From NCBI GenBank assembly GCA_017457065.1, contig JAFTIE010000151.1, positions 1 through 51,163 on the forward strand: DNA of 51,163 bases, written 5' to 3'. Of this stretch, positions 161-51,163 are shown in pieces. The stretch is from Lentisphaeria bacterium (GTDB taxonomy: Bacteria; Verrucomicrobiota; Lentisphaeria; Victivallales; Victivallaceae). Numbering within the stretch: position 1 is the first letter of the stretch; every line of letters begins with the position of its first letter. The notes below the pieces were generated by a model. The model was given only the letters and a program-made list of their open reading frames with translations. It was not told the origin of the DNA and searched no databases. The position numbers and the translations under genes are program-made.

Positions 161-775
161 TTATGCTTCAAGTTCATCGTCCGCTTTCCGGGACGAAGCG
201 GGGGCGGTACCGCAAATCTCTGAAAGTTCTTTTTCCAAGCTCTCATCCGCCCGGGCATCTGCGGGGGCGGCGGTGAACTCTGAAAGATCGGGAGCCGTCG
301 TCTCACTGCCTTTGTACTCATTCTTTTCCAGCTGCTCCAGAACTTTATTCTGGTCACGCATATCATCGTTGAGATCCTGTATTTGCGTCACCAGCGTTTC
401 CAGAGCATCGGTCCGCTCGGGAGTACGGGGCAGATCACGCAGATTTTCCAGTTTGGCAAGCTGTGCGGTGACAGCTTTCATGTTGTCGCTGAGCAGCCGT
501 TGTTTTTCCGCCATGGCGGCACGTTTCTGGAGCAGGGGCTTGATTATTTCAGCGTATGCGCCTTTGGAGGGGCCCTGAGCCTCTTCGTATTTGGGCTGAA
601 GCTTTCTGATTTCACGTTCAATGGTTTCAGCCTCATTGATCTGCATTTCCAGAAGCTCTCTGAACCGGCTCAGTTCCTCTTTGCATCCGGCGATCATTTT
701 CTGGATCTTTTTTTCTTCTGTATCAACCAGTCCGATGGCAGCAAGAAGGTTGAAAAGCCAATCCGGGATAACCAT
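161..775 (-). CDS. Coiled-coil protein of unknown function, last gene of the sigma factor/protease operon
   Basis: The product is about 204 aa. The start at 775 is preferred over an upstream in-frame ATG at 835 because AAGGAAAGG lies just upstream of it, and the upstream choice would overlap the preceding gene. The N-terminus has a short hydrophobic stretch (WLFNLLAAIGLV, about residues 6-17). Residues about 20-150 are rich in heptad-like E/K/L/Q patterns and probably form coiled coils. The C-terminal 50 residues are acidic and Ala/Ser-rich, likely disordered. It starts 28 nt after the protease gene and is probably co-transcribed with it. I recognise no family; the coiled-coil pattern is loosely PspA-like, but no PspA signature is evident. 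A partner or scaffold role for the membrane protease is conjecture. The stop codon lies two bases from the end of a MITE copy. Confidence 0.75.
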   Translation of the reverse strand: MVIPDWLFNLLAAIGLVDTEEKKIQKMIAGCKEELSRFRELLEMQINEAETIEREIRKLQPKYEEAQGPSKGAYAEIIKPLLQKRAAMAEKQRLLSDNMKAVTAQLAKLENLRDLPRTPERTDALETLVTQIQDLNDDMRDQNKVLEQLEKNEYKGSETTAPDLSEFTAAPADARADESLEKELSEICGTAPASSRKADDELEA

Positions 776-803
776 GATAAAATTTCCTTTCCTTACAGTT
801 ATG

Positions 804-2591
804 TTATCTGTTGAATTGTATGAATTTCCGGGCACGGATACCGCAGACTATGGTAGACAGTATCCAGGCAACGGCAGTGATGGAACACTGAACGACTGCG
901 TTGGGAGACAAACTTTTTTTGAATCCGGTGGCAATGAGACAGATCATCAACAGCAGCAGTGACAGTGCCACCAGACCGCACGCCAGATTGGCTGAGCGTC
1001 TGGTGAACCTTGCGGCACGTTTATATCCGGGGGGGGGGGCTTCCCCTTCCCTGATCCTGAGCAGATGTCCCTTTTTATCCTTGGCATATCTGCCGCTGCG
1101 GAACAATTCATCAAGAGAGCGTGCCACGAAGAAATCGTAACAATTTTCATCATACAGTTCCAGTTCCCGTTTGAGAGTTGCGACTGAGACTGCTCCTGAA
1201 AGTCCCCAGACGGCATTTGCAGCTTCCTGTTCAATGGCAGGGATATAATTCACCGGCAGGATGTGTCTGAAAAACTCTTTTGTGCCCCACCCGCACTCAT
1301 TTTCCGCTGCGGGGAGTTTGAAGGTCCAGAGCCCTTTGGCGTTCAAAGTGCAGAGGAATACAGTTGGATCTTTGGAAACCTGACAACTCTCATCAAATCC
1401 CGCGGCACTTCCGACGGTATAGAAAAGATGGGTGTATGTCACCTGGGGGGAATCACCTTGTTTGAAGTGCTCCACATAATCATAAACGGTCTTCAGATCC
1501 TCCCGGGTGAGTTTTTTGCCGTCTCTGCGGTAAAGAAAAGCGCTCACCAGCCGGTAATGTCTCCGGCAGCTGAGGACCACCCGGTAGATCCTGATTTCTC
1601 CCTTCACGTTTCCGATGCCGTTCTTTTCCAGAAAAGCTTCAAAATCCCCCTTACGGTTTTGAGGAGCGTTGAAGGAGGCGGCACTCTTCACCCGGGCGTT
1701 GATGCCCCAGCTCTGAAGAGCGGGCAGCTTGATACCGGGAAAGGGGTAGTCGCCGTAAAAATTGTTCTGCTGGTCATTGAAAAACTTTTCCATTACATTT
1801 TCAGCGGCGGCGCTGCCGGATACAGAAAGTTGTTTTTCTGCGGGAAGTTCCTTTTCCTCAGGCTTTTCCTGAGCTGCAGAGCTCTCTTTCTTCTCTTCCG
1901 GGGGAGCAACAGCACAGAAGGCACAGTAAGCGTGGGCTTCAATATATTCGTAAGGGATCCTGATATCGTGACGCCCCTTCCAGCTGTTGGCGGCACGGAA
2001 AAATCCCCGTGACTCCATTCCGGGCGTGTCACACCAGCCGTAAATGGTCATGGCGTGGAGCCCCTCAGGGGGAACCAGAGCATTCCCGGGCAGCCGGAGC
2101 CATTGACCGTCATCGAGAGAGTCTTCAAAAAGGAGACACCCCACGGAAATCGGTGAAGGGCGGTTGCCGCCGGCTCCGCAGAGCACGCTCTTGTACTCGT
2201 CAATGCCCCGGGGCGGATCGGTTTTCAGAGGCTCAAACTCAATGTCATCAAAGGTCTCAACGGGGATCTTTGCCCAAAGTTCCTCTGAGATCTGCGCCTC
2301 TTCTCCGGCAGGTATCTTGTTGTAGGGCCATTGGTCATAGAGACAGACGCCATGCTCTTTGACAGAACGGAATATCTCTTTAAATTCAGTTCCCTCCTGA
2401 TGGCGCATCTCTTCGCTCAAATGGGTGGAAGCATAGATATACTGAGGACTGAAACGCTTTTTATTCCCTCTGAGATACTCCAGCATGGCGACGGCGCTGA
2501 AAGCAGCACAGGTCCCCCTGCGCCCCTGATCTCCGGAAAGCTGAAACCCGGGCAGAGAAAAGGATTCAGGATATCCGCCTGAAGAGCTCAT
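804..2591 (-). CDS. Papain-like (C1 family) cysteine protease with two C-terminal membrane helices
   Basis: The product is 595 aa. The N-terminal ~230 residues have the C1 peptidase layout: oxyanion-hole Gln22 and nucleophile Cys28 in DQGRRGTCAAFS, His179 in GLHAMTIYGW and Asn202 in AANSWKG. No signal peptide or propeptide is visible, so the catalytic domain probably starts in the cytoplasm. A low-complexity E/K/A linker (about 230-255) leads to a ~250-residue domain I do not recognise. Two hydrophobic helices near the C-terminus (about 535-556 and 566-588) would anchor the protein. The start overlaps the anti-sigma-like stop by 4 nt (ATGA), so translation is coupled. A run of 11 G (C on the coding strand) at 1029-1039 lies just before the membrane helices and could be slippage-prone. 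The context suggests a role in signalling with the sigma factor; substrates are unknown. Confidence 0.8.
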   Translation of the reverse strand: MSSSGGYPESFSLPGFQLSGDQGRRGTCAAFSAVAMLEYLRGNKKRFSPQYIYASTHLSEEMRHQEGTEFKEIFRSVKEHGVCLYDQWPYNKIPAGEEAQISEELWAKIPVETFDDIEFEPLKTDPPRGIDEYKSVLCGAGGNRPSPISVGCLLFEDSLDDGQWLRLPGNALVPPEGLHAMTIYGWCDTPGMESRGFFRAANSWKGRHDIRIPYEYIEAHAYCAFCAVAPPEEKKESSAAQEKPEEKELPAEKQLSVSGSAAAENVMEKFFNDQQNNFYGDYPFPGIKLPALQSWGINARVKSAASFNAPQNRKGDFEAFLEKNGIGNVKGEIRIYRVVLSCRRHYRLVSAFLYRRDGKKLTREDLKTVYDYVEHFKQGDSPQVTYTHLFYTVGSAAGFDESCQVSKDPTVFLCTLNAKGLWTFKLPAAENECGWGTKEFFRHILPVNYIPAIEQEAANAVWGLSGAVSVATLKRELELYDENCYDFFVARSLDELFRSGRYAKDKKGHLLRIREGEAPPPGYKRAARFTRRSANLACGLVALSLLLLMICLIATGFKKSLSPNAVVQCSITAVAWILSTIVCGIRARKFIQFNR

Positions 2592-3280
2592 CGGAGCGCC
2601 TCCGGCAAAAATTTGATGCGCCCCGGCGACACAACACCGTCACGGGTGACAAAAGAGATCTCCCGGCAGCCTTTGTTTTCGATAAAAACTCTGAAGGGCA
2701 GAGAAGCAAGTCCGCAGCGCAGTTCCATCCTCTGATTGAGAAAATCCATGATCCCGTCAAGAAAGGCCCCTTTGGAATCTGTGACCTTCATGGAAATCAG
2801 GGACGAACCCGAAGGAATACGGGGCAGGGTCATCTGCATCTTCCAATAACTGCCGGATTCAGGCGTTGCGTATGATTCAAAGGTGAACCTGATATCTTCC
2901 GCAGGACCGGGAAGCTTCACGGCTCCCTGTCCTGAGGAAGCGGCAAAAAGAACAGAAATTTCACTGCGCAGCGAACCGAAAGAGGTGCTTTTGAAAACAT
3001 TTCCGGCAGGAGAGGTGATTTTTTTACTCAGGTCATCCACTGTGTCAAAGAATTTGTTCCACATGGCATTGGAGCCGGTCAGTTCTGCTGCGGCATTTTC
3101 TGCGGCTGTTTCCTCTTCTGCGGACAGTTCATACTCCTTTTCGCAGACAGACTCCAGCGCCAGCTGAAAATTGTCACGGCAACGGCTGCACCCGGCGATA
3201 TGGAGAGCTGCGGGGCAATTTTCACTGCGGAGCGGTTCCATGGCAAAGCAGATCAATTCTTCAGGGGTCATACACTTCAT
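2588..3280 (-). CDS. Zinc-finger anti-sigma-like protein
   Basis: The product is 230 aa. Near the N-terminus, HIAGCSRC gives the H-x3-C-x2-C pattern typical of zinc-binding anti-sigma domains, preceded by a helical stretch containing a further Cys. The rest (about 90-230) looks beta-rich, with no clear membrane helix. This differs from many anti-sigma factors, which are membrane-anchored. It lies immediately downstream of an ECF-type sigma gene with a 4-nt overlap, the usual arrangement of a sigma/anti-sigma pair, and overlaps the protease gene by 4 nt at its own end. By family knowledge it would bind and restrain the sigma factor. The C-terminal domain could sense a signal or contact the protease; that is inference. 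Confidence 0.7.
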   Translation of the reverse strand: MKCMTPEELICFAMEPLRSENCPAALHIAGCSRCRDNFQLALESVCEKEYELSAEEETAAENAAAELTGSNAMWNKFFDTVDDLSKKITSPAGNVFKSTSFGSLRSEISVLFAASSGQGAVKLPGPAEDIRFTFESYATPESGSYWKMQMTLPRIPSGSSLISMKVTDSKGAFLDGIMDFLNQRMELRCGLASLPFRVFIENKGCREISFVTRDGVVSPGRIKFLPEALR

Positions 3281-3879
3281 ACAGCCATTCCTCCTTCCCT
3301 TCTGAGCATCTGCCGCATATTTTCATCAGCACGATGGAATATCGTATCGACATTTTGCGGCGTAATGTCAAGCATGGCGCTGATTTCTTTGGAACGCAGC
3401 ATGTCATACCTTCTCAACAAATAAACATAAGCGCTCATGGGATTTTCCTTCCACAACTTTGAAAAACAAGTTTCGACAGACTGCCAGTTTTCCCGGCTTC
3501 CATCTGTAAAGAGTTCCTCATTGCTGTTTTCTGACACGGCAGAATCGACTTTTTCGGAAGAAACCGGTGAATCATTACGTTTGCAGTGTTCCAGTATGAG
3601 CATCTTGACATAAAAACGCATCCAGAAAACGACAGGCGAACGGAAACCGTAGTTGCTCAGTTTGCCTTTGCCGATCATATAGTCGTAAAGCATTCCGTAA
3701 ACGGTCACATCGTTCAAATCTCTGTCCTTTGCGATCTGACGGTAGGAAACACCATTTTTCGTTTTTCCGGCAAGGACGGGAGCAACAGATCTCTTGAAGA
3801 TAACACTCCAAGCCTCTTTGTCTTCAGCTTTCAGGCGTTGAAAAAACGCCATTTCCGTTTCTTTATCAAAAGTTTCCAT
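3277..3879 (-). CDS. ECF-like RNA polymerase sigma-70 family factor
   Basis: The product is 200 aa, a typical ECF length. The N-terminal half resembles region 2, with a hydrophobic and aromatic stretch (VVFWMRFYVKMLILEHC). The C-terminal ~50 residues resemble region 4: a helix-turn-helix around RSKEISAMLDITPQNVDTIF, followed by a basic helix. The linker between them is Ser/Glu/Asp-rich. Its stop overlaps the start of the zinc-finger anti-sigma-like gene by 4 nt. It is the first gene of a four-gene operon with a papain-like protease and a coiled-coil protein, so it may drive its own operon or a wider regulon. A sigma-70-type promoter is visible at 4025-4053, leaving a leader of roughly 140 nt. 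Confidence 0.8.
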   Translation of the reverse strand: METFDKETEMAFFQRLKAEDKEAWSVIFKRSVAPVLAGKTKNGVSYRQIAKDRDLNDVTVYGMLYDYMIGKGKLSNYGFRSPVVFWMRFYVKMLILEHCKRNDSPVSSEKVDSAVSENSNEELFTDGSRENWQSVETCFSKLWKENPMSAYVYLLRRYDMLRSKEISAMLDITPQNVDTIFHRADENMRQMLRREGGMAV

Positions 3880-4332: not shown

Positions 4333-4527
4333 GAGGCAATTTCAAAATTCCTCAAAATTGTCAAAGCGCCCTCGCTTCGATCTGATAAAGGGAGCGTTTT
4401 CGGCTGTTACCTACAGGTAGCAACCCTTGTCACGGCATAGCCTTGGCGACGCCGGATCAAACTACCCTTTACAGCTCTTTGCGAATGGCATCTTTGCCTT
4501 TTTTTGAATGACTTTTGAAATTACCTC
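4333..4527 (-). mobile_element. MITE-like element, copy 2 (complete, inverted relative to the other copies)
   Basis: This 195-bp element is bounded by GAGGCAATTTC at 4333 and GAAATTACCTC at 4527, which are imperfect terminal inverted repeats of about 15 bp. The flanking 4-mers TGTT (4329-4332) and AGTT (4528-4531) are a possible but imperfect target duplication. Read on the minus strand it contains the left module (CATTCGCAAAGAGCTG...GGGTAGTTTGATCCGG), a short TACC/GGTA hairpin instead of the tandem units, and the right module. It ends 22 bp before the ribosome-binding site of the desulfoferrodoxin gene. Confidence 0.8.
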
Positions 4528-4990: not shown

Positions 4991-5235
4991 GAGGTAATTT
5001 CAAAACAAAGATCTCATTCGCAAAGAGCTGTAAAGGGTAGTTTGATCCGGCGTCGCCAAGGCTATGCCGTGACAAGGGCTGCTGCCTGGCTTATCCCGCC
5101 GCAGCTTTATGCGGAGGGGGAAAGGTAACAGACGCTTGTCCCGCCGCAGCTTTATGCGAAGGCAGAAAAACGCTCCCTTTATCAGATCGAAGAAGAGGGC
5201 GCTTTGACAATTCTGAGGAGTTTTGAAATTGCCTC
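4991..5235 (+). mobile_element. MITE-like element, copy 3 (complete, 245 bp)
   Basis: The element is bounded by GAGGTAATTTCAAAA (4991) and TTTTGAAATTGCCTC (ending 5235). It has an exact 4-bp direct repeat, GTTA, at 4987-4990 and 5236-5239, as expected for a transposition target duplication. It shares the GATCCGGCGTCGCC...GACAAGGG module with copy 2 only. It carries two tandem CTTRTCCCGCCGCAGC hairpin units, as copy 1 does. Its right end is 15 nt before the ribosome-binding site of the flavodiiron gene. No protein is encoded. Confidence 0.85.
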
Positions 5236-8844: not shown

Positions 8845-9981
8845 TTACCGATTTGCGCTCTCCTTTTTCAGTCTCTCTCTGAGCTCTTTGTTTCGGCGGA
8901 GGGCATCTGAGATCTCCTGCGCCGAAAAAGAGACCGGCGGCGGTGGAGGGGAATGAAGCCTGACTCCGGCAGTCGCCAGACAGCGTTCCAGCAGTTCAGC
9001 GGGCAGAGAAGCGGCATACTCCAGATGCCACTTGTAACAGTACGCCGCCGCTATGACCTCATCGCTGAAACTTCTTTCCCGCTCTCTTTCTGTTTCAACG
9101 GAAACTTCCGGAGACTTTTTTTCCGCAGACTTTTTTTCCGCAGACTTTTTTTCCGCAGACTTTTTTTCCGCAGACAAACTCTTTACAGCTCCCGGCACTT
9201 TTTCTCTTTCCTGAATTACAGGAAGGGAGCTGCTTTCAGACTCTGAAAGAAAAGCAGACTCTTCCTCTTCCTTCCGTTCCGGGGCAAGCAAGGATCCGCC
9301 GCCGGGAAAAAGCAGCTCCGTGATCACCTTGCTCCCCGCTGCCGCCACAGGGCGGGGAAGGTATTTCCGCCCCAAAGCAAAAAGTGTTCCCTTTGCCAGA
9401 GTTTTCAAAAAGGGGAAAAGATATTTTTTCAATATCCCCGGCTTTCTTTCTGAAGATCCGGGAGTATCTGCCGGAGGAGACTCTTCGGGAAGAGATCCGT
9501 CACCGTCAGGCGCTCCGGCAAAAATATCCGCTTCCGGATCTGCACAGAGAGAAAAAGTTCCTTTTTCCTGTTCCGGGAAGGCGTGTACGCTCACTTCCTG
9601 CTTCGACGGCAGCAGATGATCTGAAATCGAAATAACGGAAAGATCCGCCTCTTGAAACTTTACCGATCTTTCCTGCAAGAGGGGTGTTTTTTTTCCGGCT
9701 TCCGGCGGTGCCCCGGAAACAGCCGGGGACTCTTCCCCGGCAAGAATGATAAAGGCAGAGATGAGTTTGCATACATCAGACTCAGAAATATCTGCCAGTT
9801 GCTCCCGGAACCTGGAGGGAAAAAAAGGCGCAAGACTCTGAAGGACAGCGCTGCGCCCTGATCCGGGTCCATGCAGCAGGGATCGACGGAGTGCTTCAGC
9901 TGTTTTGCGGATCGACTCCGGTTCCGGGAGACGAAGATCGAACCTTTCCCCGGATCCGCTGATGACCGTAAGATTTTCCAT
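8845..9981 (-). CDS. Unknown protein with SAEKK repeats, paired with a tail-tube-like protein
   Basis: The product is 378 aa. The N-terminal ~90 residues look helical and folded. A long low-complexity Pro/Glu/Ser-rich middle follows, then a basic segment around 185-235 (KKYLFPFLKTLAKGTLFALGRK). Four perfect SAEKK pentapeptides come next, encoded by a 15-bp tandem repeat at 9111-9170. The C-terminal ~80 residues are helical, with a PPPPP run. It starts 2 nt after the 150-aa tail-tube-like gene. In tailed phages this position is often occupied by tail-assembly chaperones, which makes that a possible role, but I see no diagnostic motif. It ends with Arg/Lys-rich helices. Confidence 0.55.
   Translation of the reverse strand: MENLTVISGSGERFDLRLPEPESIRKTAEALRRSLLHGPGSGRSAVLQSLAPFFPSRFREQLADISESDVCKLISAFIILAGEESPAVSGAPPEAGKKTPLLQERSVKFQEADLSVISISDHLLPSKQEVSVHAFPEQEKGTFSLCADPEADIFAGAPDGDGSLPEESPPADTPGSSERKPGILKKYLFPFLKTLAKGTLFALGRKYLPRPVAAAGSKVITELLFPGGGSLLAPERKEEEESAFLSESESSSLPVIQEREKVPGAVKSLSAEKKSAEKKSAEKKSAEKKSPEVSVETERERERSFSDEVIAAAYCYKWHLEYAASLPAELLERCLATAGVRLHSPPPPPVSFSAQEISDALRRNKELRERLKKESANR
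9111..9176 (+). repeat. 15-bp tandem repeat (about 4.4 units)
   Basis: The unit CAGACTTTTTTTCCG is repeated four times (first unit with G in place of C at position 1) and then partly. It encodes SAEKK on the minus strand. Each unit carries a T7 run, so both unit number and reading frame could vary by slippage. Confidence 0.9.
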
Positions 9982-19204: not shown

Positions 19205-20761
19205 TTATCTTATCTCCTTCAATACTTTAAGTGTTTCTTCAACCAGTTCCTGACCGCCCTCAGGGGAAACCTGATTGCAGTAGGGCGAGGCGCTGTACCC
19301 TTTGTTGGCTTGAGCTCTTTTTGTGGCAAGGTATGAGCCGTACTGATGGGGATCCCCTGTCAGCTGAACGATAAAGGTCTGCTCAAAGGGACTCCGCGCC
19401 TGGATCCGGTGCATGTAGTCCATAAAAAGCTCAAAGCGGTTGGTGGCAAATGCCACGTTGCCCACTTTGACCACATGGATCTCCGCCGGAAGTGTGGGTT
19501 GTTCCTTTTGAAGTGCGCAGCGCTCCACCACGCCGCCGCAGCGTCTTCTGCGGCTTTGGAGCGTGGAGTTGTGCTGCAGCTGCACATACTTGTTTCCCTC
19601 TGTGAGCATGGAGTCATTCATCAATGCCTGGTAATTATTCTTTTCCTCCTCCAATATCTCTTCGGGGAAGAGCTCCCGTTTCAGGGGGATAGTCCTGATT
19701 TCGTGTTTGAGTTCGGGGGCGGAAAACTTCTCTTTTGAAGCCCACTCCAGCACCTCCTCAAAGGCGGCGGCAATGCGGCTGCCCATATCTTCGGCACGGA
19801 GCGTTTCCAGACAGAAGTGTTCGTTTCTTTTTGCGACGATCTCCTCACATCCGGGATCATCCGGATCAACGGGGAACTTCATGGGATCCGCCATAAAGCG
19901 GGCTCTGAGTTCGGGATACTTCAGGGCGTAGCGCCGCTTTTCAGCTTCAAGATAGTGGAGCTGCATGGGTGAAAGATCTCCGGCGCCGGCACATTGAGCG
20001 ATGATGCCGATCTCACCGTGTAGGGCAGAAAGTTTCTCACGGACATTGTGCCAGAAACTTGCGTGAAGCTCCCAGGCGTGCATACCGGTCTGTGAAGGAC
20101 AGGGCAAATTGATCACGGCACCTGTGAGTTTTTCATTGCTGTCAAAGGTGTAGAGCAAATTTACAAAGGGATCTGTTCCCGCTTCGTAGCAGTTGAACAT
20201 ATCATCCTTTGTATTGCCGTACATCTTGGCGTTGCCGTTGACGGTGAAACCGGGACGGGCATTTTCCCGCTCCCCGATATTGTCGGTATAGACGGTGCGG
20301 CGGCTCAACCCCACTTCGGCGAAACCGTAGCCGTAGGCGATGGAACCGGGGGCACGGGCTGCCCACGCTTCTTTCACAGCATCGGCGATCTGACGTGCCA
20401 GAAAGGAGAATGTTTCCTCATTGGATGCCATTTCCACATTGCGGGGGAACTCCGCAACTTCAGCGCCCCCCGGCCCGGCGTGGGTATGGGTGGCGCTGAT
20501 GAAAAGTTTGGAAACCGGCAGCTGCGGGAGTTCTGTTTTCAGGATCTCCTGCACCTGAGTGAGCAGACGGGGTCTGATCCCCACCATGTCGCAGGAGACC
20601 ATGACCACCAGATCTTCGCCGTTTTCAAGCACCAGAGCGCTTGCCATAACGGGAGTGCGGACCCCCATGGAAACACGCAAGTAGAACTGTCCCGTCACAG
20701 GGACGGGAAAATCAGGAGCTATGGAGCGTTTCCCCCAGCCGATGTTCAGTTGAGCTGCCAT
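19205..20761 (-). CDS. Neutral/alkaline non-lysosomal ceramidase-family protein, paralogue A
   Basis: The product is 518 aa, without an obvious signal peptide. The zinc-site motif SATHTHAGPGG (His92, His94) and the nucleophile-region motif GAGDLSPMQLHY are both present, so the catalytic Ser of the family (GDxSPN in known enzymes) appears conserved. Family enzymes are amidases that cleave ceramide to sphingosine and fatty acid. These short proteins lack the C-terminal immunoglobulin-like domain of canonical ceramidases (about 650-700 aa), so the true substrate may differ. It follows paralogue B by 15 nt and ends 1 nt before the sugar isomerase gene. Confidence 0.85.
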   Translation of the reverse strand: MAAQLNIGWGKRSIAPDFPVPVTGQFYLRVSMGVRTPVMASALVLENGEDLVVMVSCDMVGIRPRLLTQVQEILKTELPQLPVSKLFISATHTHAGPGGAEVAEFPRNVEMASNEETFSFLARQIADAVKEAWAARAPGSIAYGYGFAEVGLSRRTVYTDNIGERENARPGFTVNGNAKMYGNTKDDMFNCYEAGTDPFVNLLYTFDSNEKLTGAVINLPCPSQTGMHAWELHASFWHNVREKLSALHGEIGIIAQCAGAGDLSPMQLHYLEAEKRRYALKYPELRARFMADPMKFPVDPDDPGCEEIVAKRNEHFCLETLRAEDMGSRIAAAFEEVLEWASKEKFSAPELKHEIRTIPLKRELFPEEILEEEKNNYQALMNDSMLTEGNKYVQLQHNSTLQSRRRRCGGVVERCALQKEQPTLPAEIHVVKVGNVAFATNRFELFMDYMHRIQARSPFEQTFIVQLTGDPHQYGSYLATKRAQANKGYSASPYCNQVSPEGGQELVEETLKVLKEIR

Positions 20762-20776
20762 GATTTGAAAAGCCTT

Positions 20777-22327
20777 TTACCTGATTTCTTTGAGAACCTT
20801 CAGCGTTTCCTCCACCAGCTGCTGACCGCCTTCGGGGGAGACCTGATTGCAGTAGGGGGAAGCGCTGTAACCTTTATTCTCCTCGCCCCGGACCGTGGCA
20901 AGGTAGCTGCCGGAACCGTTGGGACCTGTCACCAGCTGGACGATGAAGGTCTGTTCAAAGGGGCTCCGTGCCTGGATACGGTGCATGTAGTCCATGTAAA
21001 GCTCAAAGCGGTTGGTGGCAAAGGCGATGTTGCCGATCTGCACCACATGGATGTCTGAGGGGATATTGGGCTCTTTCTGCTGGATCTCATAACGCTTCAC
21101 CACGCCGCCGCAGCGGCTCCGGCGGCTGTTGAGCATGGAGTTGTGACGGAGCTGCTCCCATTTGTCGCCCTCTGTCATCATCTCCTCTTTCATGAAGTTT
21201 TCATGATTTTTCTTTTCCTCTTCCATCATCTCTTCGGGGAACATCCGGCGTGCCAGATCCACGACACGGACTTCGTGTTTGAGTTCGGGAGCGGAAAATT
21301 TCTCTTTGGAAGCCCATTCAAGGACCTCATCAAAGGCAGTGACGATGCGGTTGGCGATATCCTCTGCGCGCATAAATTCAATGCAGGAGCTTTGACATGA
21401 TGCCTGTTTATCCTCAGGGGAAAGATTTTCGTACCCGGGGAACTTCATGGGGTTCGCCATGTAGGCAGCGATCTTTTCGGGGTATTTAAGCTGATAGCGC
21501 CGCCATTCAGCGGTGCGGTAGTGGAGCTGGCGGGGAGAAAGATCCCCTGCGGCGGCGGCTTGTCCCACAACGCCGATCTCACCGTATCTGGCGGTGAGCT
21601 TTTCACGGACGTGGTGCCAGAAACTTGCATGGAGCTCCCAGGCGTTTTCGTTGGTCTGGGAAGGACAGGGCACGTTGACCACTGCTCCTGAAAGTTTACC
21701 ATTGCTGTCAAAGGTGTAGAGCAGATTGATGAAGGGATCGGTACCGGCTTCGTATGAAGCGAACATATCATCGGCGGTGTTGCCGTACATCTTGCCGTGT
21801 CCGTCAATGGCGATACCGGGACGGGCTCCGGAGCGCAGACCGATGTCATCCAGATAGATGGAGCGGCGGCTGTGGCCCGTGGTGGCGAATCCGTAACCGT
21901 AGGCGATGGAGCCGGGAGCACGCTTCTGCCACGCCTCTTTCACCGCATCGGCGATCTGACGGGCGAGGAAGATACGGAGTTCTTCCCCCTCTTTCATTTC
22001 CACATTGCGGGGGTAGTCCCCCACATCACGGGAGCCGGGACCCGCATGGGTGTGGGTGGCGTTGATGATGAGTTTGTTTCCCTGAAGCGCAGGGAGTTCC
22101 GCAGCCAGAAGAGCTTGCACCTTGAGCAGCACATCAGGATCCACGGAAACCATGTCGCAGGAAACGAAGATCACCTGATCTTCGCCGTTTTCCAGCACAA
22201 GGGCACTGGCGAGGACGGGGGTGTAGCACCCCACTGATACACGCATGTAGAACTGTCCGGGGATGGGAACAGGGAAATCCGGGGCAAGGGAGCGTTTGCC
22301 CCATCCGATATTGATTTGCTGAGCCAT
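20777..22327 (-). CDS. Neutral/alkaline non-lysosomal ceramidase-family protein, paralogue B
   Basis: The product is 516 aa, closely related along its whole length to the flanking paralogues. It starts with QINIGWGKRSLAPDFPVP, close to paralogue A. It keeps the zinc motif NATHTHAGPGS and the Ser-containing motif AAGDLSPRQLHY. No signal peptide is seen. The C-terminal segment QARSPFEQTFIVQL and the end NQVSPEGGQQLVEETLKVLKEIR are nearly identical to paralogue A, pointing to recent tandem duplication. As for A, ceramide hydrolysis is the family reaction, but the physiological substrate is not known. Confidence 0.85.
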   Translation of the reverse strand: MAQQINIGWGKRSLAPDFPVPIPGQFYMRVSVGCYTPVLASALVLENGEDQVIFVSCDMVSVDPDVLLKVQALLAAELPALQGNKLIINATHTHAGPGSRDVGDYPRNVEMKEGEELRIFLARQIADAVKEAWQKRAPGSIAYGYGFATTGHSRRSIYLDDIGLRSGARPGIAIDGHGKMYGNTADDMFASYEAGTDPFINLLYTFDSNGKLSGAVVNVPCPSQTNENAWELHASFWHHVREKLTARYGEIGVVGQAAAAGDLSPRQLHYRTAEWRRYQLKYPEKIAAYMANPMKFPGYENLSPEDKQASCQSSCIEFMRAEDIANRIVTAFDEVLEWASKEKFSAPELKHEVRVVDLARRMFPEEMMEEEKKNHENFMKEEMMTEGDKWEQLRHNSMLNSRRSRCGGVVKRYEIQQKEPNIPSDIHVVQIGNIAFATNRFELYMDYMHRIQARSPFEQTFIVQLVTGPNGSGSYLATVRGEENKGYSASPYCNQVSPEGGQQLVEETLKVLKEIR

Positions 22328-22342
22328 TTTTCTGTCCTTATT

Positions 22343-24625
22343 TTATCTGGAAAATTTCAATGTGGCGCCTTTGTCAAGATTCTTGCGGGCACCAAAGTTC
22401 TGGATATAGGAACCTGCAGAACGTTTGATCTGTCCTGCGGCATTCTTGTAATAGCTGTTGCGGAAGACGTTGAATCTGTATTCGCCAGTTTTTCCTTTGG
22501 CGGAAAAGAGCAGTTCATCAAGGGGAATGGCAAGGAAGGCTTCCCAGCTGCCCCCAGAGGAAAGAGCGCTCTCAAACTTCAGATCCCGGCAATTCCATGA
22601 GGAACCTGTGACTTTGGTGCCGCGGCTGTGTGAAAGGTCCATGAGCTTTTTCCCGGGGGCGTAGATGAACTGGAAGCACTCATTATTCTGCCCGATGAAA
22701 AATTCAATGCACTCAAACTGCCAGATGGAACCGTCACGGGCGGGTTCTTCCGCAGGAGGAGGGATCACCTTGTCCCCTTTGGCAGGAACGCCGCATTCGG
22801 TCTTGATGTAAAGGAACTTGCCGTCCTGAAGCAGACGCAGCACCGTGGGGGCGCTTTGCATACCTCTGCCGTCGGTGAGGCAGAAGTTCCCTGCCTTTGC
22901 CGCCTTCTGCCAATCCTTTGCTGTGGGGATCCCCTTGACTTTGGGGACAGTGATCACAGGAGGATTCTTTTTGACAACGGCAGATCTATCCAGAGCTTTG
23001 AGCATCTTCAGTGTTTCGTTGACCAGCTGCTGTCCTCCTTTGTAAGAGACCTGATTGCTGTAGGCAGTGGCACTGTATCCCTTGTTCTTTTCGCCCCTTG
23101 CGGTGGCAAGGTAGCTGCCGGTGCCTCTGGGATCCACGGTCAACTGGACGATGAAGGTCTGTTCAAAGGGACTTCTCCCCTGGATACGGTGCTGGTAGTC
23201 CAGGAAAAGCTCAAAACGGTTGGTGGCAAAGGCGATGTCCCCGATCCGCACAGCGTGGATATCAGTGAGAAGGAAGGGCTCCTTTTTCACCTGTTCGTAA
23301 CGGGTGCTGATAGCAGCCATGCGCCGTCTGCGGCTTTGGAGACGGGAGTTGTGCATAAGCATGGTCAGGGGATCCCCTTCGGTCAGGAACTTTTCTTTCA
23401 TGCTGGCGGCATGTTTGCGTTTTTCATCATCCACCAGTGCTTTGGGGAAACTCCTTTTGGCAAGTTTCACAGTTTTGACATGGTGTGTCAGCACGGGGGA
23501 GGAGTATTTTTCCTTCCCTGCCCAGCTCAGGACTTCGTCAAAGGCGGCGACGATGCGGTTGGCGATATCTTCGGCGCGCATGAGCTCAATGACTTCGCCG
23601 CTGTCGGCTGCCACTGCAGAACTTTTCACACCGTTGAAAGCAGGACGGGGCATGGGGTTTTTAATGTACTCTTCAATAAGTTTGCTGTATTTGAGCATGT
23701 AGCGCCGTCTTTCAGCAGCTTTGTAGTGGAGCTGACGGGGAGCCAGATCCCCTGCGGCGGCGGACTGGGCGATCACCCCCACATCGCCGTATTTGGCGGC
23801 AAGTTTTTCACGGACATTGTGCCAGAAACTTGCGTTGTATGACCAGACAGCTTCACTGGTCTGTGAAGGACAGGGCACATTGATGACCGCACCTGAAAGC
23901 TTGCCCTTGCTGTCAAAGGTGTAGAGCAAGTTTATAAAGGTGTCGGTTCCGGCTTCGTATGAAGCAAAGTCGGGATCGGCAGTGTTGCCGTACATGATAC
24001 CGTGTCCGTTGACAGCGACACCTGCGGAGGCTTTGAACTTTTTGCCCATATCCCTGAGATAGACGGCACGGCGGCTGTGTCCTGTGGTGGCGAATCCGTA
24101 GCCGTATGAGACGGCACCGGGGGCACGCTTCTGCCACGCCTCTTTCACCGCATCGGCGATCTGACGGGCGATAAATTTCTGCACCTCAGAACCGGGAGTG
24201 ACCTTCATCTTGTTGGGATAGTTGATCACATTTGCCCCGGTGGAGGGACCGGCGTGGGTATGGGTGGCGTTGATGATGAGTTTCTCAACAGGGAAACCTT
24301 TGATCTCCCGGGCAAGGATCTCTTTGACAAGGATAAGGACTTTGGGCTGGACGGAGACCACATCGCAGGAAACAAAGATCACCGCATCTTTGGAGTTCTC
24401 GATCACCAGAGCACTGGCGATGACAGGGGTATATGTTCCCTGAGAGACCCGCAAGTGGAACTGTCCTGAAATGGGGACAGGTCCGGGCATGGCGATGGAG
24501 CGTTTGCCCCATCCGATCTTCAAATCACCGGCAGCACTTTTTCTGCACTCCTGAGTTGAGGCGCAGGAGGGGAGCAAAAAAAGCGCTGCAGCCACCATGA
24601 GAAAGGCTGCAGCATGCTTTTTCAT
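22343..24625 (-). CDS. Ceramidase-family lipoprotein, paralogue C, with CBM9-like C-terminal domain and altered nucleophile
   Basis: The product is 760 aa. It starts with a lipoprotein-type signal (FLMVAAALFLLPSC, candidate lipidated Cys21). The family core follows, with INATHTHAGPSTG. The nucleophile motif reads AAGDLAPRQLHY: the Ser present in paralogues A and B is Ala, encoded GCT. After the core, about 200 extra residues resemble a family-9-type carbohydrate-binding or sugar-sensing domain (tracts such as IWQFECIEFFIGQ and WEAFLAIPLDELLFSAKGKTG). If the Ser is the nucleophile, this copy may be inactive as an amidase and act as a binding protein. Its ATG at 24625 overlaps the DegT stop. 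Confidence 0.85.
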   Translation of the reverse strand: MKKHAAAFLMVAAALFLLPSCASTQECRKSAAGDLKIGWGKRSIAMPGPVPISGQFHLRVSQGTYTPVIASALVIENSKDAVIFVSCDVVSVQPKVLILVKEILAREIKGFPVEKLIINATHTHAGPSTGANVINYPNKMKVTPGSEVQKFIARQIADAVKEAWQKRAPGAVSYGYGFATTGHSRRAVYLRDMGKKFKASAGVAVNGHGIMYGNTADPDFASYEAGTDTFINLLYTFDSKGKLSGAVINVPCPSQTSEAVWSYNASFWHNVREKLAAKYGDVGVIAQSAAAGDLAPRQLHYKAAERRRYMLKYSKLIEEYIKNPMPRPAFNGVKSSAVAADSGEVIELMRAEDIANRIVAAFDEVLSWAGKEKYSSPVLTHHVKTVKLAKRSFPKALVDDEKRKHAASMKEKFLTEGDPLTMLMHNSRLQSRRRRMAAISTRYEQVKKEPFLLTDIHAVRIGDIAFATNRFELFLDYQHRIQGRSPFEQTFIVQLTVDPRGTGSYLATARGEKNKGYSATAYSNQVSYKGGQQLVNETLKMLKALDRSAVVKKNPPVITVPKVKGIPTAKDWQKAAKAGNFCLTDGRGMQSAPTVLRLLQDGKFLYIKTECGVPAKGDKVIPPPAEEPARDGSIWQFECIEFFIGQNNECFQFIYAPGKKLMDLSHSRGTKVTGSSWNCRDLKFESALSSGGSWEAFLAIPLDELLFSAKGKTGEYRFNVFRNSYYKNAAGQIKRSAGSYIQNFGARKNLDKGATLKFSR

Positions 24626-26071: not shown

Positions 26072-26235
26072 GAGGTAATTTCAAAAGTCATTCAAAAGAT
26101 GGCAAAGATGGCATCGCAAAGAACTGCAAAGGGTAGTTTGAAGCTGCTACCTGCAGGGTAACAGCTGAAAACGCTCCCTTTCGCAGAGCGAAGCGAGGAC
26201 GCTTTGACAATTTTGAGGAGTTTTGAAATTGCCTC
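26072..26235 (+). mobile_element. MITE-like element, copy 4 (complete, 164 bp, short form)
   Basis: The element is bounded by GAGGTAATTTCAAAA (26072) and TTTTGAAATTGCCTC (ending 26235), with an exact 4-bp direct repeat, ATTC, at 26068-26071 and 26236-26239. It lacks the tandem hairpin units and the GATCCGG module. Between the left and right modules is only a short GCTACCTGCAGGGTAACAGC hairpin. It lies in a 528-nt gap between the divergent DegT and 26464 genes; the rest of that gap holds a promoter on each side and no gene I can support. Confidence 0.85.
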
Positions 26236-51022: not shown

Positions 51023-51163
51023 GAGGTAATTTCAAAAGTCATTCAAAAAATGACAAAGATGCCATTCGCAAAGAGCTGTAAAGGGTAGTTTGCACTTGCT
51101 ACCTGGCTTGTCCCGCCGTAGCTTTATGCGGAGGGGGAAAGGTAACAGGCGCTTGTCCCGCCG
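51023..51163 (+). mobile_element. MITE-like element, copy 5 (right end outside window)
   Basis: The element begins GAGGTAATTTCAAAAGTC and runs through the left module (GCCATTCGCAAAGAGCTG...GGGTAGTTTG) and at least one complete CTTGTCCCGCCG hairpin unit plus the start of another, to the end of the window. It is a long-form copy like copies 1 and 3, without the GATCCGG module of copies 2 and 3. Confidence 0.8.

Follow-up and report, generated by a model that had tools for sequence, protein, structure and literature searches.

Here we report that four genes at the start of a metagenomic contig from a Lentisphaeria bacterium form the front part, devoted to regulation and proteolysis, of a bacterial ESCRT-III/Vps4-like operon that is truncated by the contig end. 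In relatives, the same genes run on into a Snf7-like ESCRT-III gene and the gene for an AAA ATPase with a predicted MIT domain, and we put the probability that the whole is a bacterial ESCRT-III/MIT-AAA operon at roughly 0.87. To our knowledge, ESCRT machinery made up of Snf7-like and MIT-AAA proteins has so far been described only from archaea and eukaryotes. That the two occur side by side in Lentisphaeria and in further families of this phylum calls such confinement into question and bears on the origin of the eukaryotic membrane-scission machine. The link to a sigma/anti-sigma pair and a protease leads to a testable hypothesis, namely that a bacterium converts the assembly of ESCRT proteins into gene expression.

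Gene content and truncation of the operon

The window (the whole stretch of DNA that was analyzed, 51,163 nucleotides) forms the beginning of contig C109 in a metagenome-assembled genome of 3.5 Mb (MAG; G000). A check of its open reading frames placed four genes on the minus strand, and coordinates and sequence agree with the original prediction as to the reading frames, the two 4-nucleotide overlaps and the 28-nucleotide gap. Gene 1 (positions 3277-3879, 200 amino acids) encodes a divergent ECF-type sigma factor, gene 2 (2588-3280, 230 amino acids) a putative soluble anti-sigma with a conserved C-terminal domain, gene 3 (804-2591, 595 amino acids) a papain-like cysteine protease, and gene 4 (161-775, 204 amino acids) a helical protein that we propose, from its predicted fold, as an ESCRT-III-like subunit (A). 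The overlaps are of the ATGA type and join sigma to anti-sigma (3277-3280) and anti-sigma to protease (2588-2591), while the gap lies between the protease stop and the start of gene 4; we read the four genes as translationally coupled. Both overlaps are kept in the diverged relatives L021 and L061, and the first also in L017, L018 and L019; having been found again at such distance, they are not due to chance.

The same prediction took these four genes for a complete operon, a view that we abandon here: the operons of relatives continue into ESCRT-III/MIT-AAA genes, and the contig breaks in a repeat. The 160 nucleotides from gene 4 to the contig end all lie within this dispersed repeat (1-160, no strand), which matches its own genome at 42 places; 40 of these copies are full length (97 bases or more), and many lie at contig ends. 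Since the contig starts with a repeat of about 40 copies, the assembly broke directly after gene 4. The window also holds partial copies near 4333-4400 (this one inverted), 5079-5235, 26168-26235 and 51102-51163.

Conservation and genomic settings

The conserved gene order is sigma factor, anti-sigma, papain-like protease, helical protein A, Snf7-like ESCRT-III protein B, MIT-AAA ATPase, 2-TM protein and DUF4384 protein. In G013, G027, G049 and G002, gene 4 is followed by a second helical protein (gene 5, encoding B) and then by the AAA ATPase (gene 6); gene 7, which encodes hydrophobic helices, and the DUF4384 gene come next wherever the contig is long enough. The end of contig C168, from the same genome as the window, carries a C-terminal AAA fragment (82% identical to that of G013), gene 7, the DUF4384 gene, another gene-5 paralogue and another MIT-AAA gene, in the order seen in G013; this assembly lacks gene 5 proper and the front part of gene 6. 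Two genomes sampled from sheep colon and yak cecum carry the same operon. MAG contamination was considered as the source of the window and rejected, as Snf7-like genes share contigs with bacterial sigma genes in G013, G027, G049, G002, G385 and G144.

The synteny of sigma, anti-sigma and protease genes is conserved, the pair lying directly upstream of the full-length protease in 8/8 operons (G000, G001, G002, G013, G027, G049, G144 and G385). A six-frame search with the protease gave matches in 7 of 100 genomes, its own included; in six of them the match is the protease of the operon or an orthologue that has diverged from it, and G085 has a short papain fragment only. The protease and gene 5 occur in an identical set of 6 of the 100 genomes (P about 8e-10, not corrected for phylogeny). 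Across the phylum, relatives of gene 5 are patchy (16 of 388 genomes). No relatives of the protease were found in a search of viral sequences, and none of gene B in a search of plasmids.

The sigma/anti-sigma/papain triple recurs in four more distant genomes (L084, L085, L087 and L086, the last of which is cut) with different downstream genes and no ESCRT genes nearby. The anti-sigma proteins of L084, L085 and L087 have no HxxxCxxC motif, and since the papain-like protease is still there, zinc or redox release through that motif cannot apply to them, an observation that weakly favors proteolysis over redox release. The pair also occurs without this protease (L081, L082, L083, L088 and L089), so that the protease is not obligatory for it; in L081 the anti-sigma gene is followed by membrane proteins. 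Read from the sequence, L082 (6742-10068) and L083 (6328-9667) have HD-, GAF- and subtilase-like reading frames after sigma and anti-sigma, and the same regulatory pair may have acquired a different protease there.

Elsewhere in the phylum, the majority of ESCRT-III B/MIT-AAA loci have neither the sigma factor nor the protease. In L062 and L064-L069, pairs of gene-5-like and MIT-AAA genes sit in bigger clusters with SPFH/zinc-ribbon, FHA, Ser/Thr kinase, trypsin-like, M48-like and LpoB-like genes, and these clusters apparently represent a further type of ESCRT-like locus in bacteria.

The Snf7-like protein and the MIT-AAA ATPase

A profile built from 22 gene-5 proteins and run against 177,635 PDB sequences gave its four best scores to yeast SNF7 sequences (1.8e-8 to 6.5e-8), followed by matches to a Heimdallarchaeota ESCRT-IIIB (1.2e-3) and a Vps20/32/60-like ESCRT-III (3.2e-3), with two designed repeat proteins intervening; a smaller profile of 10 sequences matched SNF7 at 3.2e-9. 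The Pfam Snf7 model, in turn, matches 19 of the 22 proteins at E<=0.1, and of ten tested, those of L061 and L068 exceed its gathering score. The gene-5 family is accordingly placed in Snf7-family ESCRT-III, with SNF7 as its top match in the PDB and Pfam Snf7 scores above the cut-off in several members. A six-frame search of the 388 phylum genomes with Pfam Snf7 gave scores above the cut-off in G001, G002, G235 and G385; Sulfolobus was the sole control genome with a match, which fell under the cut-off. Profiles A1 and A8 run against the PDB had no match to PspA/Vipp1, and PspA/IM30 sequence membership was not found.

The strongest Pfam Snf7 scores came from G372 and were set aside, as its contigs encode a RING finger and low-complexity acidic proteins of eukaryote-like character; most likely this bin (L107-L109) is contaminated by eukaryotic contigs, despite a listed contamination of 1%. 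At L110 (3635-8782), a Snf7-family gene scoring above the Pfam cut-off and too diverged for the gene-5 profile adjoins two AAA ATPases (1110 and 370 amino acids) with N-terminal helical regions.

The N-terminus of gene 6 is modeled as an 80-amino-acid three-helix domain (pLDDT 93), for which the closest PDB folds are the MIT domains of VPS4A, VPS4B and Sulfolobus Vps4 (TM 0.72-0.83, rmsd about 2 A; E>=0.07, weak values owing to the small size of the domain). By sequence this domain has no Pfam MIT match; from the model, gene 6 is predicted to encode an AAA ATPase with an N-terminal MIT domain. Walker A and Walker B are intact. Two-domain Cdc48/p97 proteins rank first among PDB matches of the AAA domain, and since they dominate there, assignment of the AAA class by best PDB match was rejected. 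In a small tree with five reference sequences, the domain grouped with VPS4A/katanin (support 0.945), a placement that the Cdc48 ranking makes tentative. It is about 40 residues shorter than VPS4A downstream of Walker A, so that the Vps4-type beta-domain insert is probably absent. Candidate MIM1-like tails are visible in the alignments.

Gene 4 as a putative ESCRT-III-like subunit

Gene 4 was originally described as a coiled-coil partner of the protease, and in light of the operons of relatives it is more than that, forming part of the front of an ESCRT-III/MIT-AAA operon. Its AlphaFold model (pLDDT 73) begins with a short amphipathic N-terminal helix, which is followed by a long hairpin and a third helix; the C-terminal helix carries the amphipathic motif DESLEKELSEI. 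The C-terminal helix contains ADESLEKELSEI, which we take to be similar to the MIM1 motif. A Foldseek search with the model placed Asgard ESCRT-IIIB at the head of its list, with VIPP1, CdvB2 and PspA also near the top, all at non-significant values (E>=0.05). Sequence profiles of gene 4 matched coiled coils only and no ESCRT-III, and a profile comparison with the gene-5 family gave no match; an assignment to ESCRT-III by sequence thereby failed. Its predicted fold and its position make gene 4 a likely ESCRT-III-like subunit.

The sigma/anti-sigma pair and the protease

Region 4 of the sigma factor matches PF08281 above the Pfam cut-off (E=3.4e-7), and region 2, which has no Pfam match in gene 1, is too diverged for Pfam. 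Sigma orthologues are 29-80% identical and lie upstream of the same genes. The upstream regions of the operons, compared by eye, share no common promoter motif. In the anti-sigma, the motif reads H27-x3-C31-x2-C34 and is present in 8/8 orthologues from ESCRT operons; a Pfam search assigned the protein to no family, anti-sigma families included. The protein was predicted to have no membrane helix, and its highest hydropathy over 19 residues is 0.76, with no hydrophobic helix. HxxxCxxC, no transmembrane segment and an adjoining sigma gene together make gene 2 a putative zinc anti-sigma (ZAS) protein.

The protease consists of a catalytic domain (residues about 1-230), a C-terminal domain (about 260-535) and two membrane helices (536-554 and 565-583). 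A profile of the family matches the cysteine protease 3ois in the PDB (2.5e-15) and also cathepsins; the window sequence alone scores under the Pfam cut-off. The Gln-Cys-His-Asn catalytic set of peptidase C1 (papain) is found in order, and Q22, C28, H179 and N202 are conserved in 12/12 complete homologues, a thirteenth being truncated by a contig end. By hydropathy, there are two hydrophobic helices at the C-terminus and zero at the N-terminus, and the simplest reading of this arrangement is a cytoplasmic catalytic domain. Homologue alignment and hydropathy thus uphold the intact catalytic residues, C-terminal anchors and helix-free N-terminus that had been described from the single sequence. 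Neither a protease found mostly without the pair nor unconserved catalytic residues, the two outcomes against which the original prediction had been set, was seen (8/8 operons, 12/12 homologues).

Among the 388 genomes, the C-terminal domain of the protease is found in six, and all six have ESCRT-III B (gene 5). At L063 this domain stands alone beside A and B, with neither a papain domain nor a sigma factor, which suggests that it may be the part that connects the protease to the ESCRT proteins. A solitary papain-like paralogue in G013 (L022, 6426-7706) has neither the ESCRT-associated C-terminal domain nor adjoining sigma genes.

Comparison with known systems

The operon resembles archaeal and eukaryotic ESCRT-III-Vps4 systems (CdvB-CdvC; Snf7/Vps4) in that a Snf7-family gene adjoins a MIT-AAA gene, and in the MIM-like acidic/leucine C-terminal tails. 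It differs in its bacterial host, in the coupling to a sigma/anti-sigma pair and a papain-like protease, and in that some of the ATPases contain a second AAA domain; genes for ESCRT-I/II or winged-helix proteins were not seen here. Bacterial PspA/Vipp1 and PspA/Snf7-AAA loci belong to the same superfamily, and at some of them an AAA+ ATPase accompanies a PspA or Snf7-clade protein (PMC11237479). Their described neighbors are ABC transporter and PBPB/OmpA genes rather than sigma or papain genes, and the bacterial Vps4 examples are without Snf7 (PMC11237479). Unlike PspA/Vipp1, the gene B profile matches Snf7 and Asgard ESCRT-III, never PspA.

In the CalpL-CalpT-CalpS system of type III CRISPR, a SAVED-Lon protease is switched on by cA4 and, once activated, cuts an anti-sigma (PMC11417357). 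Genes for a protease, a soluble anti-sigma and an ECF sigma factor lie together in both systems, whereas the protease described here is papain-like, membrane anchored and ESCRT-linked. Membership in type III CRISPR/Calp was rejected, as the protease is not SAVED-Lon and the window holds no CRISPR-like tandem-repeat array. In the fungal Rim/Pal pathway, membrane Snf7 is required for the calpain-like protease Rim13 to activate Rim101 (PMC4393102). The likeness would be a path from ESCRT-III at a membrane through a papain-fold cysteine protease to a transcription factor; the regulators are not homologous, and the target here would be the anti-sigma/sigma pair. The locus is a member of neither the CalpL-CalpT-CalpS nor the fungal Rim pathway. 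A literature search found no paper on this arrangement, a weak negative given that subscription papers and preprints lay mostly outside its coverage.

Proposed mechanism and alternative explanations

From gene content, gene order, domain identities and catalytic residues, all read from the sequence, we infer the following functional steps. A and B would polymerize on the inner membrane, at its cytoplasmic face, when this membrane is under stress or attack; the polymer would be remodeled and/or recycled by the MIT-AAA ATPase. The protease would sit at the same membrane through its C-terminal helices, dock through its ESCRT-specific C-terminal domain and be activated by A/B assembly. It would then cut the soluble anti-sigma and free the sigma factor, which in turn would raise expression of the operon and of repair or defense genes. 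Such proteolytic sigma release is plausible and compatible with the conserved triple. We regard an envelope-damage or defense module, in which the membrane-anchored, ESCRT-linked protease cleaves the anti-sigma, as the most likely explanation, held at somewhat under even odds, and grade action of the protease on the anti-sigma equally. That ESCRT assembly triggers the protease is a more tentative step, and the fullest version, a true bacterial ESCRT-III/Vps4 machine in which Snf7-like filaments, formed where a membrane is damaged or under phage attack, switch on a protease that destroys the anti-sigma, is rather unlikely. Counted against the preferred explanation are the non-significant fold match of gene 4 and its lack of sequence similarity to ESCRT-III, the pairs found without the protease, the many ESCRT-III B/MIT-AAA loci of the phylum that have neither sigma factor nor protease, and the missing middle of the operon. 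If the fullest version holds, the operon would be a bacterial counterpart of the Snf7-Rim13-Rim101 relay, and ESCRT function would have existed, or moved, beyond archaea and eukaryotes.

The surroundings of the operon admit another explanation. The operon of G002 is flanked by caspase genes, two lying on each side, and one follows the ESCRT cluster of G001; caspase-like (PF00656) genes are found at L039 (918-4393), L040 (3-4110) and L037 (14560-16017), one of them with BspA-type leucine-rich repeats. These neighbors suggest a setting in defense or cell death. The sigma pair might then only control expression, through zinc or redox loss or a ligand, with the papain-like protease, joined by caspases in some relatives, as effector; the protease would degrade cell proteins after membrane attack, and ESCRT-III/AAA would sense or repair the damage. 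HxxxCxxC can act as a redox switch in other anti-sigma proteins, and the patchy spread (16/388 genomes) and the varying protease type (papain-like or subtilase-like) beside one sigma/anti-sigma family point the same way. We consider this explanation rather unlikely. Against it, the protease C-terminal domain tracks ESCRT genes rather than caspases, and L084, L085 and L087 have lost the zinc motif and kept the protease. PADLOC had no match for the anti-sigma or the protease, a weak restriction-enzyme match for the sigma factor (E=0.03) and coiled-coil background for gene 4, and a known defense system was rejected on this result.

A role in envelope stress or membrane maintenance, with the protease processing A/B or the 2-TM protein, and with sigma and anti-sigma as ordinary regulators on a shared transcript that are freed by another protease, would account for L063, for ESCRT cores without sigma factor or protease in other families, and for the SPFH, kinase, FHA and trypsin-like genes that adjoin those cores. 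It is improbable given that the start of the protease gene overlaps the anti-sigma stop, or directly adjoins it, even in diverged operons, and that the triple recurs away from ESCRT genes, which ties the protease to the anti-sigma and not to A/B. Least probable by far is a convergent likeness, in which genes 4 and 5 would encode coiled coils of a generic kind, and gene 6 would be a Cdc48-like AAA whose helical N-terminus is unrelated. The coiled-coil matches of gene 4, the Cdc48/p97 proteins heading the PDB matches of the AAA domain, and Foldseek E-values above 0.05 for MIT and gene 4 are what it would predict. Against it, SNF7 came first for the gene-5 profile among all PDB sequences searched, Pfam Snf7 finds gene 5 independently, MIT domains top an unbiased fold search, and genes 5 and 6 share an operon in the order usual for ESCRT-III/Vps4.

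Other features of the window

Three tandem paralogues (518, 516 and 760 amino acids; positions 19205-24625) have a common N-terminal region with an I-G-W-G-K-R-S motif and look like a local triplication. A tandem 15-bp repeat at 9106-9175, within the reading frame at 8845-9981, encodes an AEKKS repeat.
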